Positions 15,368 to 28,125 of a stretch of DNA of 64,000 nt are shown here, in pieces; position 1 is the first letter of the stretch; each line of letters opens with the position of its first letter. The stretch is taken from contig NZ_CP145605.1 of assembly GCF_036884255.1 (NCBI RefSeq), positions 4,464,001 through 4,528,000 of the forward strand, given 5' to 3'. A program made the position numbers and the translations under genes. Under the pieces are notes generated by a model, which saw only the letters and a program-made list of their open reading frames with translations, was not told where the DNA came from and did no database searches. The stretch is from Paenibacillus tundrae (GTDB lineage Bacteria; Bacillota; Bacilli; Paenibacillales; Paenibacillaceae).

Positions 15368-15390
15368 TCATGGCCCCGTGACGAGGAGAA

Positions 15391-15429
15391 CAAAAAAGAC
15401 TCCTTGCCGTGTTTAATGGCAAGGAGTCT
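15391..15429 (-). terminator. pyr leader attenuator (intrinsic terminator)
   Basis: On the minus strand a perfect 12-bp stem AGACTCCTTGCC / GGCAAGGAGTCT with a 9-base loop runs into a TTTTTTG tract, about 55 bases before the pyrR start codon. This is the conditional terminator of the classical PyrR attenuation system. Upstream of it lie the PyrR-type hairpins and a run of sequence that could form the alternative antiterminator, including a small CTTCAG/CTGAAG hairpin at 15436-15453. Confidence 0.92.
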
Positions 15430-15525
15430 CCAAACTTCAGTCTACGCTGAAGAAAGTTTACTCTCGGGGATGCACCGTTTCGTTTGCCGCAGCAAATAAA
15501 CGATGTATCGTTCACGTTACCTTGC

Positions 15526-15593
15526 CAGTCTCACGGGACTGATTTAAAGGTGCTATTCATGACGTCCATCTGGCAGTACCTCACAGGGTACTG
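15526..15593 (-). promoter_or_regulatory. Two tandem PyrR-binding-type RNA hairpins in the pyr leader
   Basis: Two hairpins with the CNGNGA hexaloop typical of PyrR targets. The first transcribed (15593-15574) is CAGTACC, loop CTGTGA, GGTACTG, a perfect 7-bp stem. The second (15541-15526) is CAGTC, loop CCGTGA, GACTG, followed by the usual GGCAAGG. The second fits the published PyrR consensus best (AGTCCCGTGAGACT). Known Bacillus attenuators carry one such loop each, so the doubling is notable. Confidence 0.75.
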
Positions 15594-15810: not shown

Positions 15811-15850
15811 AATAACCCTTTTCCCACATTGATAATGCGGAAAAGGGTTA
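15811..15850 (-). terminator. Terminator of the UbiA cassette
   Basis: Minus strand TAACCCTTTTCC and GGAAAAGGGTTA form a perfect 12-bp stem, with a small inner CATT/AATG pairing, followed by TTATTTT. It lies about 100 bases after the last gene of the UbiA cassette and isolates the cassette from the pyr promoter. Confidence 0.8.
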
Positions 15851-15950: not shown

Positions 15951-17267
15951 TTAATTCCAACTCTGCGACTCAACAACAGCCTTCTTCCCTAATTGCTCGT
16001 AAGATTGTTTAATGGTCGTGAGTGTCTCCATATGACGATATATATTATTGCCTGCTGTTATGAGTATACTTACGATCAATAAACCAACCAGAACTTTTTT
16101 TCCCGTTCCCTGACGTAAACCAATAACAAATCCTCCGCCTAATAGGAAGAAAGCAAACAAATAATGCCCAGCATACAGATACATGTCATATTGGAATACG
16201 GCGAGTCCAAAGCCAACGACAATATGAAGCAAAAATGCAAAAATAATATAAGGAAGCAGTGTCCAAACTTCACGTTCCCGAATACCTTTGATTGCTCCGG
16301 TTAGAGCAAGAAGCAAGATGAACACTCCTGTAATTTGCACATATATTGGATTGGATCGTGTGAGATCTGTGACAAACGCAACCATGCTCGGGTCAAGCAA
16401 AATAACTTTTGGCGTTAAGATCGGATTAATGGTTAATAAATTCAGTGCTTTCCAGTGAACGGCGAACTGAAAAGGTGTTGCATAACTCGTTCCTCCGTTT
16501 TGAATACCCAGCAGCCAATTGGTTACCCAGCTTCGTCCACCGAGGGATACATATTGAATAACGGTAAATATTACAATCAAGGCACCTGCCAATAACATAA
16601 TCCCGATAAATTTTGTCCATCCAGCCTTACTTCTCCACGTCCGCATATTGCCAAACAATGCAGCAGCAAATGGAACAATATTGGTTGATGTTAACCCAAA
16701 ATTCACAGTGGCCAGAACAGCATGAGGTACAACACGAACTTCATTCTGTTCGCGAGAATATTGCAGATATATCACAGATAACAAGATAACAAATTGAACA
16801 TATGGGTAGGAATCAGGAATCAGAGCCGTGAACATCAGATATGAACTGAAGCCAAATAAAAGCGCAAAAAGTAACGGTATCGTGATCGTTCTGTCCTTCT
16901 TACTTAGAAAAACAAATACCAATACAACAGAAGCAGCGTTTATAAAGGATTGCAGGACGAGAAAGAATCCATTGCCACCTAACAACTGCGCCCCAGCGCC
17001 CAGAGCAAGAGCCATAAACGAAATTAGCGGATGAATGATGGATGAGCTATTGGTTCCGTAATACATCGATGGATCGAAATTGAATAAATTAAGCGGAAAA
17101 AGATGTGTACTAAATGGCGAGTAGACTGCCAAGCGATCTGCATTTTCCGAGATATAACTTACGTATGCCAGATTCATGACACCATAAAAAAGGGCAAAAC
17201 CAACGAACAAGTACAGTGCTGCCCAATTTGTTTTGCGATTATAAAATATGTATTCTGAAAATTTCAT
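15951..17267 (-). CDS. Polytopic membrane protein, possible GT-C type glycosyltransferase
   Basis: A 438-residue integral membrane protein with about ten or eleven hydrophobic segments and a short basic N-terminus. I do not recognise a precise family. The first extracellular loop (about residues 40-80) carries an acidic NFDPSMYYG motif, and a later loop has PDSYPY. Acidic residues in the first outer loop of a many-segment protein are the layout of GT-C glycosyltransferases, which use polyprenyl-phosphate sugars; this is inference. It is the last gene of the cassette with UbiA, a HAD phosphatase and two SMR-type proteins, where a transferase using the flipped lipid-sugar would be expected. An O-antigen polymerase-like or other membrane protein is possible. 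Confidence 0.72.
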   Translation of the reverse strand: MKFSEYIFYNRKTNWAALYLFVGFALFYGVMNLAYVSYISENADRLAVYSPFSTHLFPLNLFNFDPSMYYGTNSSSIIHPLISFMALALGAGAQLLGGNGFFLVLQSFINAASVVLVFVFLSKKDRTITIPLLFALLFGFSSYLMFTALIPDSYPYVQFVILLSVIYLQYSREQNEVRVVPHAVLATVNFGLTSTNIVPFAAALFGNMRTWRSKAGWTKFIGIMLLAGALIVIFTVIQYVSLGGRSWVTNWLLGIQNGGTSYATPFQFAVHWKALNLLTINPILTPKVILLDPSMVAFVTDLTRSNPIYVQITGVFILLLALTGAIKGIREREVWTLLPYIIFAFLLHIVVGFGLAVFQYDMYLYAGHYLFAFFLLGGGFVIGLRQGTGKKVLVGLLIVSILITAGNNIYRHMETLTTIKQSYEQLGKKAVVESQSWN

Positions 17268-17347
17268 GCACTCACATCCAATTTCTTTGATTACAAAACA
17301 TGTTATGAACTTCAGACCAAGCTGTATTTAGAATAGCCTCGCCCGGA

Positions 17348-17668
17348 CTACAGTACGAGAAAACATAACCCGCCCATGATGCAAATGACACCTAACCAGC
17401 GCAGTGTGCCGACATTTTCCTTAAATGCAAATCGAGCGATAAACAGCGTCCACACATAAGTGAGGGCATTGGCAGGTAATACCACCGTCAGTGGCAGAAA
17501 CTTCAATAATAAAATATTCAGCAGTGCTCCTGTACCATAGAAGCCGAGTCCCATCAATACATGTATTCGTCTGCGGCTGGTTGCATAGGCTTTCAATCCT
17601 GCCCCCCCCATCGCCCCGCATAACGTCATCACAATGAGCACAACAATCATCCAGCTATCGATCAACAC
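17348..17668 (-). CDS. Small four-helix SMR/EamA-type membrane protein B
   Basis: A 106-residue protein with four hydrophobic segments, like half of an EamA transporter or an ArnF-type flippase subunit. It starts at a GTG and overlaps the preceding SMR-type gene by 14 bases, so the two are almost certainly made together. Family knowledge: paired short EamA/SMR proteins such as ArnE/ArnF form heterodimers that move undecaprenyl-phosphate sugars across the membrane. The central LPANALTYVW segment sits where the conserved signature of this family lies. Drug efflux of the EmrE kind is the alternative. Confidence 0.8.
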   Translation of the reverse strand: MLIDSWMIVVLIVMTLCGAMGGAGLKAYATSRRRIHVLMGLGFYGTGALLNILLLKFLPLTVVLPANALTYVWTLFIARFAFKENVGTLRWLGVICIMGGLCFLVL

Positions 17669-17984
17669 TAGTCAATGTCACCCCAATTCCGAGCAATACA
17701 ACGGCTGCCAGCTTTTGGACGGTAATCTCCTCACCGAGTAGGAAATATCCATAGATCAGAGCAAAAATGTAACTGGCACACATCAAGGGATAAGCAACTG
17801 ACAACTTTTCCAACGCGAAGGCTTTGATCATCAAAATTGCACCCAGTCCGTAACATACGAAGCCGGCACCCAAGAAAAACCAGTCCGTCAGTCCCCATTT
17901 CCAGAACAGTTGACCTGTCGCTGTAAGAAAAGCAGAGATAAGCATTAGCAGCTTTCCCGTATGGCGAATTCTTACTTCCCCCAC
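17655..17984 (-). CDS. Small four-helix SMR/EamA-type membrane protein A
   Basis: A 109-residue four-helix protein with a Q-x-x-W-K-W motif in helix 1 and a YPLMCASY segment in helix 3. These resemble the ArnE/EmrE group. It starts at a GTG (17984), overlaps the HAD gene by 13 bases at its 5' end and the partner SMR gene by 14 bases at its 3' end. The tight overlaps argue for a heterodimer working on the product of the upstream UbiA and HAD enzymes. Confidence 0.82.
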   Translation of the reverse strand: MGEVRIRHTGKLLMLISAFLTATGQLFWKWGLTDWFFLGAGFVCYGLGAILMIKAFALEKLSVAYPLMCASYIFALIYGYFLLGEEITVQKLAAVVLLGIGVTLTSVDR

Positions 17985-18604
17985 GATAACGCCTCCGTCT
18001 CCGGCACATGTCTGTTGATAAAATACCGCTGTGCCACGAGCTGCATCACCGGCATATCAGACAAGGAATCTGAGTAAGCGCAGGACTGATCGTAGTCAAT
18101 CACCATGCCCTTCTGATCGAGATATGCTTGTATACGTCGCACCTTCTCCTCACCTTTGCAATTCAAACCTTCAACGGTACAGGTATATCCTTGATCATGG
18201 CGTACAAGTTCTGTTCCAATTACGTGATCGACCCAAGGGAAGTTCTCAAAATATTTCATGTACGCATGTGGAGATGCTGTAACGAGCAAAACATGATAAC
18301 CCGCTTCCTTGCGATGTTGCATCTCCACACTGGCTTCAGCAAAGATAGCTTTCCGCAATCTGGAGTCAAAAAAATGACTTAGATCTTCTTCCGTCATGCG
18401 TTCAATCCCTTTAAAATACGAGCGTTTGACTCGTTCAACACTCATAAGTCCTGCCTTAAACATCAGTGTGTGTAGAGCAATCACAGGTAATCTCCACGAT
18501 TGTCCTGGATAACGTCGAACACCATAATGCACGAATTGAAACATGGAATCGGTACGTATAATCGTTTTATCAATATCAAATATCGCAATTTTTGTACTTC
18601 TCAC
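17972..18604 (-). CDS. HAD-IB family phosphatase (SerB-like)
   Basis: A 210-residue haloacid dehalogenase-type hydrolase. Motif I is FDIDKT with the nucleophile Asp at about 10 and the acid Asp at 12; motif II is the Ser/Thr in VTASPHAY; motif IV is YSDSLSDMPV. A helical cap lies between motifs I and II. It starts at a GTG behind AGGGGGA. It is 36 bases after the UbiA gene, and in some bacteria the two domains are fused. The likely substrate is therefore the polyprenyl-phosphate 5-phosphoribose made by UbiA, giving polyprenyl-phosphate ribose. Phosphoserine phosphatase is a less likely reading in this context. Confidence 0.85.
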   Translation of the reverse strand: MRSTKIAIFDIDKTIIRTDSMFQFVHYGVRRYPGQSWRLPVIALHTLMFKAGLMSVERVKRSYFKGIERMTEEDLSHFFDSRLRKAIFAEASVEMQHRKEAGYHVLLVTASPHAYMKYFENFPWVDHVIGTELVRHDQGYTCTVEGLNCKGEEKVRRIQAYLDQKGMVIDYDQSCAYSDSLSDMPVMQLVAQRYFINRHVPETEALSWGK

Positions 18605-18640
18605 TTTGATCCCCCTTACGCTCCAGAAATCACAAACACC

Positions 18641-19555
18641 TTATTCAAAAATAGCAAAAATGCAGATTACACTAATCACATACAGAATTACGGTAATGAG
18701 TATAGGCTTGTCCTCAAATAATACCCGATCAGGCGAACCACCCTGGTTCTTCATATGAATCAAATACAAGTAACGGAACATACCATAAATGACTAAAGGA
18801 ATCGTCCACATAAGGTGTATCGTTCGATCCGACGTAAATGTAAATAACGAGTAACTAATAATCGTTGCTGTTGTAACAATGGTATTAAACTGATCCAATA
18901 AGGTAATCGAATAGTTATCAAGAACCTTACGATGAGAGCCTGTATTGCCTTCAAGCAAAGTAAGTTCGTTTCTCCGTTTTCCAATGGCCAGAAAAAGTGA
19001 AAGTAACAGCGTACAGATTAAAAACCAAGGAGTAAAAGGAACATGAATTAACACTCCACCTGCAATTGCCCGTAACACAAAGCCAGCTGCAATGGTCATC
19101 ATATCCAATATCACAAGATGTTTCAGCACAAATGAATAAGATACATTCAGTATAAAGTACACGATACACAATACGCCGAATATCGGGTTGACCACAAATG
19201 CTGTTCCTACAGATCCAATCAACAGCAAAGCACCAAATAGAAGGGCATGCGTCGGGTTAACCTGTCCTGAGGCAAGTGGGCGGAATTTCTTCACCGGATG
19301 TTGCTGATCCCTTTCTCTGTCCACATAATCATTCAGAATATATACGCAGCCTGCAACCAGACTAAATAAAATAAAACCAAGTATCGTCGTTAGAACCGTT
19401 TCTGTGCGAATTTCTTCAAAAGAAAACAATAATGCTGCAAATAATAATGCATTTTTGGTCCATTGTTTAGGCCTTAACAATCGCAATAATCCTGATAGAG
19501 TGTTCCCAGTTCCTACTGAACTAGTTGACACTGAGTTCGTACGTGAAGATAACAA
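18641..19555 (-). CDS. UbiA-type polyprenyl-phosphate phosphoribosyltransferase (DPPR synthase-like)
   Basis: A 304-residue membrane enzyme of the UbiA superfamily. It has the markers of the decaprenyl-phosphate phosphoribose synthase branch: LLRPKQWTKN at about 26-35, the Asp-rich NDYVDRERD at 75-83 followed by HPVKKFRPLASG, and LAIGKRRNEL near 190. About eight or nine hydrophobic segments follow. The family transfers 5-phosphoribose from PRPP to a polyprenyl phosphate (mycobacterial Rv3806c is the model). It starts at TTG behind a GGAG site. It is the first gene of the five-gene cassette and follows the terminator of the aminotransferase gene. The exact lipid acceptor is not known. Confidence 0.85.
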   Translation of the reverse strand: MLSSRTNSVSTSSVGTGNTLSGLLRLLRPKQWTKNALLFAALLFSFEEIRTETVLTTILGFILFSLVAGCVYILNDYVDRERDQQHPVKKFRPLASGQVNPTHALLFGALLLIGSVGTAFVVNPIFGVLCIVYFILNVSYSFVLKHLVILDMMTIAAGFVLRAIAGGVLIHVPFTPWFLICTLLLSLFLAIGKRRNELTLLEGNTGSHRKVLDNYSITLLDQFNTIVTTATIISYSLFTFTSDRTIHLMWTIPLVIYGMFRYLYLIHMKNQGGSPDRVLFEDKPILITVILYVISVICIFAIFE

Positions 19556-19660
19556 TTTCCATAACTCCCTTCAATAACAACTTCTGTCTATACAAACAAC
19601 GTAAAGACTTTATCATATGTTGCTTGTATATTTTTGTAAAGGGGAATTTACCCTTAAAAT

Positions 19661-19688
19661 CAAAAAAAAGAGACCGATATCGGTCTCT
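19661..19688 (-). terminator. Terminator of the aminotransferase gene
   Basis: A perfect palindrome AGAGACCGATATCGGTCTCT (19669-19688) followed on the minus strand by eight T. It lies about 50 bases after the aminotransferase stop and separates that gene from the UbiA cassette. Confidence 0.9.
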
Positions 19689-19740
19689 TCTGTGATCTAT
19701 CCTATTCAAACAAAAGTTTGTGTTGAACTAAAAGTGTTCA

Positions 19741-27811: not shown

Positions 27812-28125
27812 ACAAAAAAACCTCATCCCTGGAAAGGGACGAGGTTGTGCTCGCGTTACCACCCTAATTCTGTTCATCACAAACCACATCCAATACAATT
27901 GGGTATGCTCTGTCATCAACAGCGCTTATGCCCCGCTAACTTCAGCAGGGTGCCGATATAACGTTCGGCTCACGGTTTCGCTTACGCACGGCACAGTATC
28001 ACCGCTTCAGCGTCACTTCTCCGGGGAGATATTCGGCTATAACTCATCCATTGGCTTGCACCGATATGCCAACTCTCTGAGGGATGAGATCATAACGTAC
28101 TGAACCCGTCATGGAATCACTATTC
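27812..28125 (-). promoter_or_regulatory. T-box riboswitch of ileS (isoleucine-specific)
   Basis: The T-box sequence AGGGTGGTAACGCG is read on the minus strand at 27865-27852. It is followed by a terminator, AACCTCGTCCCT / AGGGATGAGGTT plus seven T (27846-27812). Stem I begins near 28100 with CTCATCC/GGATGAG and TTGGC/GCCAA. On the 3' side the segment CCGAATATCTCCCCGGAG carries an AUC triplet in the place expected for the specifier codon, which matches isoleucine. Uncharged tRNA-Ile would pair with it and prevent termination. Confidence 0.93.

Follow-up and report, generated by a model that had tools for sequence, protein, structure and literature searches.

The route by which 5-phosphoribose is moved from phosphoribosyl pyrophosphate (PRPP) to a polyprenyl carrier and then used outside the cell has been worked out so far mainly in mycobacteria and Gram-negative bacteria. 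The mycobacterial pathway to decaprenyl-phosphate ribose and arabinose (DPR/DPA) comprises Rv3806c, Rv3807c, DprE1/DprE2, Rv3789 and the Emb/Aft transferases. For Citrobacter, Kelly et al. (2024; PMC11127046) described a three-component pathway of polyprenyl phosphoribose synthase, flippase and glycosyltransferase of the C fold (GT-C), represented in C. youngae O1/O2 by ORF15 (PPPRS-PRP), ORF14 (MATE) and ORF12 (GT136); according to the same source Gram-positive candidates exist, one of them a Bacillus. Here we analyse a cassette of Paenibacillus tundrae that lies between dapL and pyrR in a stretch of 64,000 nucleotides (hereafter the window; contig NZ_CP145605.1, positions 4,464,001 to 4,528,000). 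An original prediction, made from the letters alone, had read five genes in one direction as a route to a polyprenyl-phosphate pentose, and all five are present on the minus strand, running from 19555 to 15951:

18641..19555, minus strand: ubiA, assigned as polyprenyl-phosphate phosphoribosyltransferase of the decaprenylphosphoryl-5-phosphoribose (DPPR) synthase type, 304 aa, TTG start
17972..18604, minus strand: HAD-IB phosphatase, proposed 5'-phosphatase of polyprenyl-phosphate phosphoribose, 210 aa
17655..17984, minus strand: SMR/EamA half-transporter 1 (SMR1), proposed flippase half, 109 aa
17348..17668, minus strand: SMR/EamA half-transporter 2 (SMR2), 106 aa
15951..17267, minus strand: predicted GT-C-fold glycosyltransferase (DUF6080-like), proposed ribofuranosyltransferase, 438 aa

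We propose that the cassette is a self-contained pathway by which polyprenyl-phosphate ribofuranose would be made and flipped and its ribofuranose put on a surface polymer, and we give this reading a probability of about 0.75. UbiA, judging by its family and active site, would move 5-phosphoribose from PRPP to polyprenyl phosphate, presumably C55. The HAD protein would strip the 5-phosphate to leave polyprenyl-phosphate ribofuranose, a step supported by exchange with PAP2 in related loci. The two SMR proteins, probably an ArnE/ArnF-like pair to judge by family and position, would flip the lipid to the outer face. There the GT-C protein, whose fold is predicted, would pass ribofuranose to an extracytoplasmic acceptor, and the carrier would be freed.

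Evidence for the enzymes of the pathway

UbiA. Profile scores and the tree place the cassette UbiA with DPPR synthases and not with menaquinone or heme O enzymes, as had been predicted, and both motifs on which that call was based (NDYVDRERD and KRRNEL) are in the translation. Two NCBIfam models for decaprenyl-phosphate phosphoribosyltransferases are matched above cut-off (NF008977, 286.1 bits, cut-off 234; NF008978, 231.5 bits, cut-off 207), while in a third, NF008976, the protein stays below it (188.9 against 474). The closest solved relative is the Mycobacterium tuberculosis DPPR synthase (PDB 8j8j, E 9.4e-47). The PRPP site of that enzyme, Rv3806c, includes K28, N73, D77, K87, R90, Q135, Y138, K143 and K208 (PMC10994848). 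By an alignment read by eye, eight of these nine residues are identical in the window UbiA (K34, N75, D79, K89, R92, Y140, K145 and K210, paired in that order with all but Q135), and the ninth, Q135, is replaced by N137. Among 119 related rows, in which some genomes occur twice since the locus sets L080-L139 and L140-L201 overlap (as is also the case for the 58 HAD rows below; L and G numbers denote loci and genomes of our comparison sets), K34, N75, D79, D83 and K89 are kept in 118 each, R92, Y140, K145 and K193 in all 119, and K210 in 106. The P. tundrae genome has four UbiA proteins in all. Two of the other three were usable, the third row (L003) being left out because it was in a wrong reading frame; both lack lysine at the positions of K34 and K193, and both fall outside the group of the cassette UbiA with 100/100 support, on very long branches, in a tree whose backbone is unresolved and whose bootstrap had not settled. 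UbiA of the cassette is thus assigned to the DPPR-synthase type. Among phages there was one relative of UbiA (33% identity), on a faecal contig that carries no annotation.

HAD protein. The second protein matches PF12710 (E 2.2e-35) and TIGR01490 (120 bits, cut-off 98.3), and D10, D12, T14, S111, K154, D179 and D183, which we take to be the residues of the catalytic motifs, are kept in at least 95% of the 58 related rows. It weakly resembles the HAD portion of NF006088, a model for HAD-UbiA fusions (E 0.0074), and the single solved relative found, 3fvv, is uncharacterised. The original prediction had drawn the phosphatase step from mycobacteria. The step itself is supported by what follows, but the mycobacterial enzyme is, according to PMC11127046, unrelated to HAD enzymes.

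Phosphatase slot. UbiA was found in 97 of 296 genomes of the order, and 60 ubiA loci were fetched and searched with profiles. HAD alone is present in 12 of them, PAP2 alone in 35, neither in 13 and both in none. The PAP2 protein is a divergent one, PF02681 (DUF212), the family that presumably includes Bacillus subtilis YuiD. All 12 HAD loci carry a GT-C gene of the window type, and 23 of the 35 PAP2 loci carry F4, another large membrane protein; the arrangement ubiA-SMR-PAP2(DUF212)-F4 is called type B below. Since HAD and PAP2 are unrelated phosphatases that fill one place, this is good evidence for a phosphatase step. Across whole genomes, DUF212 occurs in four of the five with a HAD-less cassette (G312, G197, G126 and G265) and in one (G298) of 55 with a HAD-type cassette, 45 of these from the genus and 10 from outside it. 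A survey of 73 genus genomes (G062 and G074 omitted) found a single DUF212 gene, in G031, where it adjoins a HAD-less ubiA; there was none in the 27 of 29 cassette-free genus genomes examined (G031 apart). Because DUF212 is rare in the genus anyway, its absence beside a HAD cassette is weak evidence, and its presence where HAD is missing is the stronger part of the exchange evidence. HAD in genus cassettes was checked at 37 loci, more than 90% of its length being present in one piece in 36 and 60% in L022, and in five further genomes (L134, L139, L156, L159 and L166, the last three corresponding by position to G071, G006 and G011); G010, G050 and G053 were counted as HAD-type by the spacing of ubiA and GT-C only.

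Sugar identity. The predicted lack of a DprE1-like epimerase holds for the window genome, in which no DprE1 match exceeds 89.9 bits (cut-off 500; no search for DprE2 was made), which makes ribofuranose the simplest product. Close to the gene for heme O synthase lies a flavin adenine dinucleotide (FAD) oxidase, identified by eye, which was considered as DprE1 and ruled out on score. Elsewhere in the same order and family, one ubiA cluster (L122, genome G229) does contain a DprE1 match, at 499.5 bits. Two large products, 810 and 1075 aa long, are also encoded in that cluster, which is a possible arabinan pathway.

SMR pair. SMR1 scores above the EamA cut-off (PF00892, 36.1 bits, cut-off 28.2), and the two SMR genes overlap by 14 bp, in keeping with the predicted pair of overlapping SMR-type proteins; HAD and SMR1 overlap by 13 bp. 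At L128-L131, four further loci of the order, the gene after ubiA is MATE/Wzx-like, as in Citrobacter (PF01943 shown for L131).

GT-C protein. The large polytopic membrane protein, which the original prediction had cast as the GT-C step, matches PF19558 (DUF6080) at 53.6 bits (cut-off 27). Its profile found no match among solved structures by sequence, and the fold was sought by structure. An AlphaFold2 model from a 45-sequence alignment has a mean pLDDT of 88.7 and a pTM of 0.91. The leading 26 rows in Foldseek are, to judge by their titles, all GT-C proteins (best E 1.1e-3, none at or below 0.001), and in the VIA structural search so are all 50 matches listed, with Z from 12.6 to 24.0; the top ones are ALG12 (Z 24.0 over 339 residues, 5.2 Å), Pmt4 (19.6), PglB (19.6), AftB (18.4) and ArnT (18.4). 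The listed PDB chains (glycosyltransferase, oligosaccharyltransferase and glycosylphosphatidylinositol transamidase) are taken by us to have the GT-C fold. We therefore hold with high confidence that the modelled protein has a GT-C fold; sharing that fold does not fix the sugar or the acceptor. D65, invariant in the 45 sequences and located between the first two long helices (11-41 and 82-96), may be the catalytic residue. Across 398 genomes of the phylum PF19558 has seven matches, three of them in the genus and four above cut-off, and the plasmids searched hold no GT-C relative. At L090 and L091, where profiles match SMR and PAP2 near ubiA, a protein of 570 aa comes after ubiA; in L090 it shows sub-threshold similarity to DUF6080 (E 2.1e-5), a possible link between the GT-C family and other architectures.

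Co-occurrence. Among 75 genomes of the genus, UbiA is found in 47 and GT-C in 49, and the two occur jointly, on the same contig and strand, in the same 45. This count leaves out G031 (a different UbiA, 48% identical), the scar of G035 and the remnants of G029, G042 and G043; stop codons interrupt the GT-C matches in G034, G037 and G038, and in G034 and G038 the open reading frames of these loci (L140, L134) place the stops at the C-terminal end. In a named collection, ubiA lies within 6.5 kb at 61 of 62 GT-C loci and the five families are complete at 46 of 62, one of these with HAD in pieces. HAD is missing at 14, none of which has PAP2 nearby. Because the named loci were picked up with patterns built on the GT-C alignment, these counts lean towards close relatives. 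The loci come from Paenibacillus, Saccharibacillus, a further member of the Paenibacillaceae, one metagenome-assembled genome and one Brevibacillus. The expected co-occurrence of the five genes in other genomes is thus borne out, and at L106 (order HAD, GT-C, SMR, ubiA) the order changes while the set stays.

Acceptor and alternative readings

In five genomes a gene of the lipoteichoic acid (LTA) synthase family lies directly downstream of GT-C on the same strand: L185 (P. sp. NAIST15-1), L192 (P. profundus), L193 (P. sp. 2.1), L194 (P. apiarius) and L196 (P. dendritiformis). In a sixth, L175 (P. sp. MSJ-34), such a gene is divergent and upstream of ubiA. The L196 neighbour matches the LTA primase 4uop with E 8.8e-89. 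The scanned neighbours of L196, L185 and L175 are recognised as members of the family, at 290.6, 287.7 and 340.2 bits, under the LtaS equivalog cut-off of 970; those of L192, L193 and L194 were called by clustering with L196. UbiA identity within the five-genome group is 72-97%. Since the L175 UbiA is not the nearest to that group, its LTA link looks like a separate one; the association has persisted despite much divergence and possibly arose two times. LTA is, on this recurrent neighbourhood, the best guess for the acceptor and the leading candidate, if one that by itself is less likely than not. At L192, L193, L194 and L196 a protein of 971-1037 aa is also encoded upstream of ubiA, the L192 copy of which has the GTPase-associated Pfam domains GAP1-N2 and GAP1-M.

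Several observations weigh against the proposed pathway or against LTA as its acceptor. Thirteen of the 61 loci with ubiA and GT-C have neither HAD nor PAP2 within 6.5 kb. G240 has a HAD-less cassette and no DUF212, and G298 has both HAD and DUF212. The mutual exclusion of HAD and PAP2 reflects a few lineages, not 47 independent events. G197, G126 and G265 all belong to family f6, with a type B ubiA-PAP2 locus and an unlinked DUF212, so that a lineage effect is inseparable from an exchange of HAD for DUF212. SMR2 is under the EamA cut-off (25.2 bits against 28.2), and the scores of SMR1 with ArnF (22.1, cut-off 99) and of SMR2 with ArnE (36, cut-off 92) are far under theirs; given so weak a likeness, we infer the flippase pair from family and position. 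L172, L176, L177, L178 and L200 have ubiA and GT-C only, with no HAD and no local SMR genes, and the full set beside ubiA is therefore not required. In Brevibacillus formosus L173 GT-C is present, and the examined stretch shows no ubiA. Finally, the three LTA-synthase-family genes of the window genome are far from the cassette, and the nearest relative is 60% identical.

Three other readings of the enzymes were compared with the proposed pathway. UbiA might be an ordinary prenyltransferase of a menaquinone, heme O or lipid pathway, with unrelated neighbours; all UbiA proteins share PF01040, and the window protein weakly matches heme O synthase (51.4 bits against 210.3). However, it exceeds two of three DPPR-synthase cut-offs, two lysines near-universal in its relatives are absent from the two usable paralogues of its own genome, which the tree sets apart, and the gene set is conserved; we consider this extremely improbable and treat it as ruled out by the family scores, site residues and tree. 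The HAD protein might have some other phosphate ester as its substrate; 5-phosphoribose would then be moved with its phosphate or lose it to a different enzyme. The substrates of HAD-IB proteins are many, and the loci lacking both phosphatases, G240 and the uncharacterised state of 3fvv fit such a role; the HAD/PAP2 exclusion, the genome-wide distribution of DUF212 and the conserved HAD motifs speak against it, as does Citrobacter ORF15, a HAD-type phosphoribose phosphatase fused to UbiA (PMC11127046), and we judge it unlikely. It is likewise improbable that, before the sugar is transferred, an epimerase encoded elsewhere converts the lipid-linked ribofuranose of this pathway to arabino- or xylofuranose. 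PMC11127046 describes diversification of this donor by epimerases, and the L122 cluster shows DprE1 beside a ubiA; the window has no sixth gene between dapL and pyrR, and the DprE1 score of its genome is far under the cut-off (DprE2-like and ORF13-like epimerases were not searched for).

For the acceptor the balance is closer, and we give even odds to a secondary cell wall polymer, an exopolysaccharide or a surface protein in place of LTA. Related ubiA genes of other architectures lie in sugar-nucleotide and polysaccharide clusters (L125, L127), and the protein glycosyltransferases Pmt4 and PglB also have the GT-C fold. On the other side, the LTA synthase family is the sole cell-envelope polymer enzyme among the seven of 15 recurrent neighbour families that were scanned, and in L185 its reading frame overlaps GT-C by 4 bp. 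The full proposal, that Paenibacillus LTA is ribofuranosylated from PRPP via a lipid carrier, an unnamed GT-C family, an SMR pair and a free-standing HAD, with deletion in several relatives, is accordingly rather doubtful as a whole.

Layout and history of the locus

The other features of the region are:

19741: end of dapL
19666..19691, minus strand: terminator-like hairpin in the dapL–ubiA gap, 11 pairs, 5 of them G-C, then a T run
19612..19640, minus strand: promoter-like TTTACA-17-TATGAT upstream of ubiA, 10/12 matches
15820..15844, minus strand: terminator-like hairpin after the GT-C gene, 11 pairs, 3 of them G-C
15390-15554: PyrR leader before pyrR
15337: start of pyrR
27832-28121, minus strand: T-box leader (RF00230, 98.4 bits)

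The two terminators said to flank the cassette correspond to the 11-pair hairpins at 19691-19666 and 15844-15820. A hairpin scan of the region gave six sites against 5.6 expected from shuffles, no excess, so the terminator calls rest on stem length and position; promoter-like sites, 15 against 14.6 expected, are likewise not in excess. An inverted repeat resembling the dapL–ubiA hairpin is visible at the corresponding place in the scar locus L208.

Compared with P. pabuli L142, the ratio of nonsynonymous to synonymous substitution rates (dN/dS) is 0.03-0.06 for four cassette genes; for GT-C the synonymous rate (dS) is saturated in this comparison and dN/dS is 0.05 against L147. All five genes are under purifying selection wherever dS can be estimated. 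Because of this, and because the gene order recurs in other species, the cassette is not a chance assembly. Against L142 and L147 its dS runs from 1.6 to saturation, above the values for dapL (1.1) and pyrR (0.8-1.0); interspecies transfer or codon bias could explain the difference.

That the cassette is inserted between dapL and pyrR is true of the P. amylolyticus/pabuli/tundrae group, to which this placement is limited; other groups have it elsewhere. Among the 62 named loci, dapL, pyrR or both are in reach at 24, and all four flank genes looked for are missing at the other 38. Four genus genomes with dapL 95-98% identical to that of the window hold GT-C remnants between dapL and pyrR. In G035 codons 1-84 of ubiA are joined within a few bases to codons 369-436 of GT-C, and the GT-C codons kept in G029, G042 and G043 are 363-420, 391-433 and 393-438, so that the extent varies from scar to scar. 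These remnants indicate that the cassette was lost there, and plain insertion into an empty site is not the whole story. G047, G009 and G024 were also examined and show no cassette remnant at dapL–pyrR. The cassette seems to have come to dapL–pyrR in this group and to have been lost later in some members, perhaps in more than one event. Shifting selection on a surface trait, for example by phages, might lead to losses of this kind, although this is speculation.

Some individual copies are unusual. P. puerhi, of another family, has a copy (L132, G126:C35; L160) with SMR1 about 90% identical to that of the window, ubiA cut to about 100 codons and HAD gone, besides a type B ubiA locus (L133), which suggests horizontal transfer followed by decay. 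In the HAD-less L109 (G312:C1:4971000-4987000), ubiA is split after codon 269 by an opposite-strand reading frame of 532 aa and the SMR2 region by one of 448 aa, both probably insertion sequences. L139 (G005) has ubiA in two frames, through a frameshift or sequencing error, with full-length matches for the other four genes.

Comparison with known systems

The suggestion that such a route is undescribed for Paenibacillus stands in part. The genus is not mentioned in the main text of PMC11127046, and our search of open-licence literature found no paper on a UbiA phosphoribosyltransferase in Paenibacillus or on DUF6080; by title, nothing relevant on a Paenibacillus ribofuranosyl wall polysaccharide, LTA structure or UbiA with teichoic acid was among the matches listed. 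The principle, however, has been published for Citrobacter (Kelly et al. 2024), so the novelty lies in the variant, with a separate HAD, an SMR pair and a DUF6080-like GT-C. If the proposed pathway is right, it offers a Gram-positive, laboratory-tractable system in which polyprenyl-phosphate ribose synthesis, flipping and use are held in one 3.6-kb piece; the exchange of HAD for PAP2 would give a handle on dephosphorylation, and GT-C would assign a function to DUF6080-like proteins.

Within the order, type B loci are one of the closest systems, their ubiA being 53-63% identical and SMR usually present. They differ in having PAP2 in the phosphatase place and F4 (~560 aa), for which the GT-C profile detected no sequence relation. 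LTA glycosylation of the CsbB/GtcA/YfhO type in Bacillus and Listeria (PMC7389260) resembles the proposed pathway in its lipid-linked sugar, small flippase, membrane glycosyltransferase and decoration of a polymer outside the membrane. There the donor is made from a UDP-sugar, here it would be made from PRPP by UbiA, and the window genome has no match to YfhO (PF09586; 0 matches, B. subtilis control positive).

With the mycobacterial DPR/DPA pathway the cassette would share the first reaction, and its predicted fold is that of AftA, AftB, AftD, EmbB and EmbC. It differs in the lack of DprE1 over cut-off in the genome, in the HAD phosphatase, in having two small proteins where mycobacteria have Rv3789, and in a single GT-C where they have several. 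Compared with Citrobacter (PMC11127046), HAD is a separate gene and not fused to UbiA, the candidate flippase is an SMR pair in place of MATE, the host is Gram-positive, and GT-C belongs to a DUF6080-like family, which may or may not be related to GT136. What the two systems have in common is a UbiA-type synthase, a HAD phosphatase, a flippase (here a proposed one) and a GT-C protein, joined in a route that would use no nucleotide sugar.

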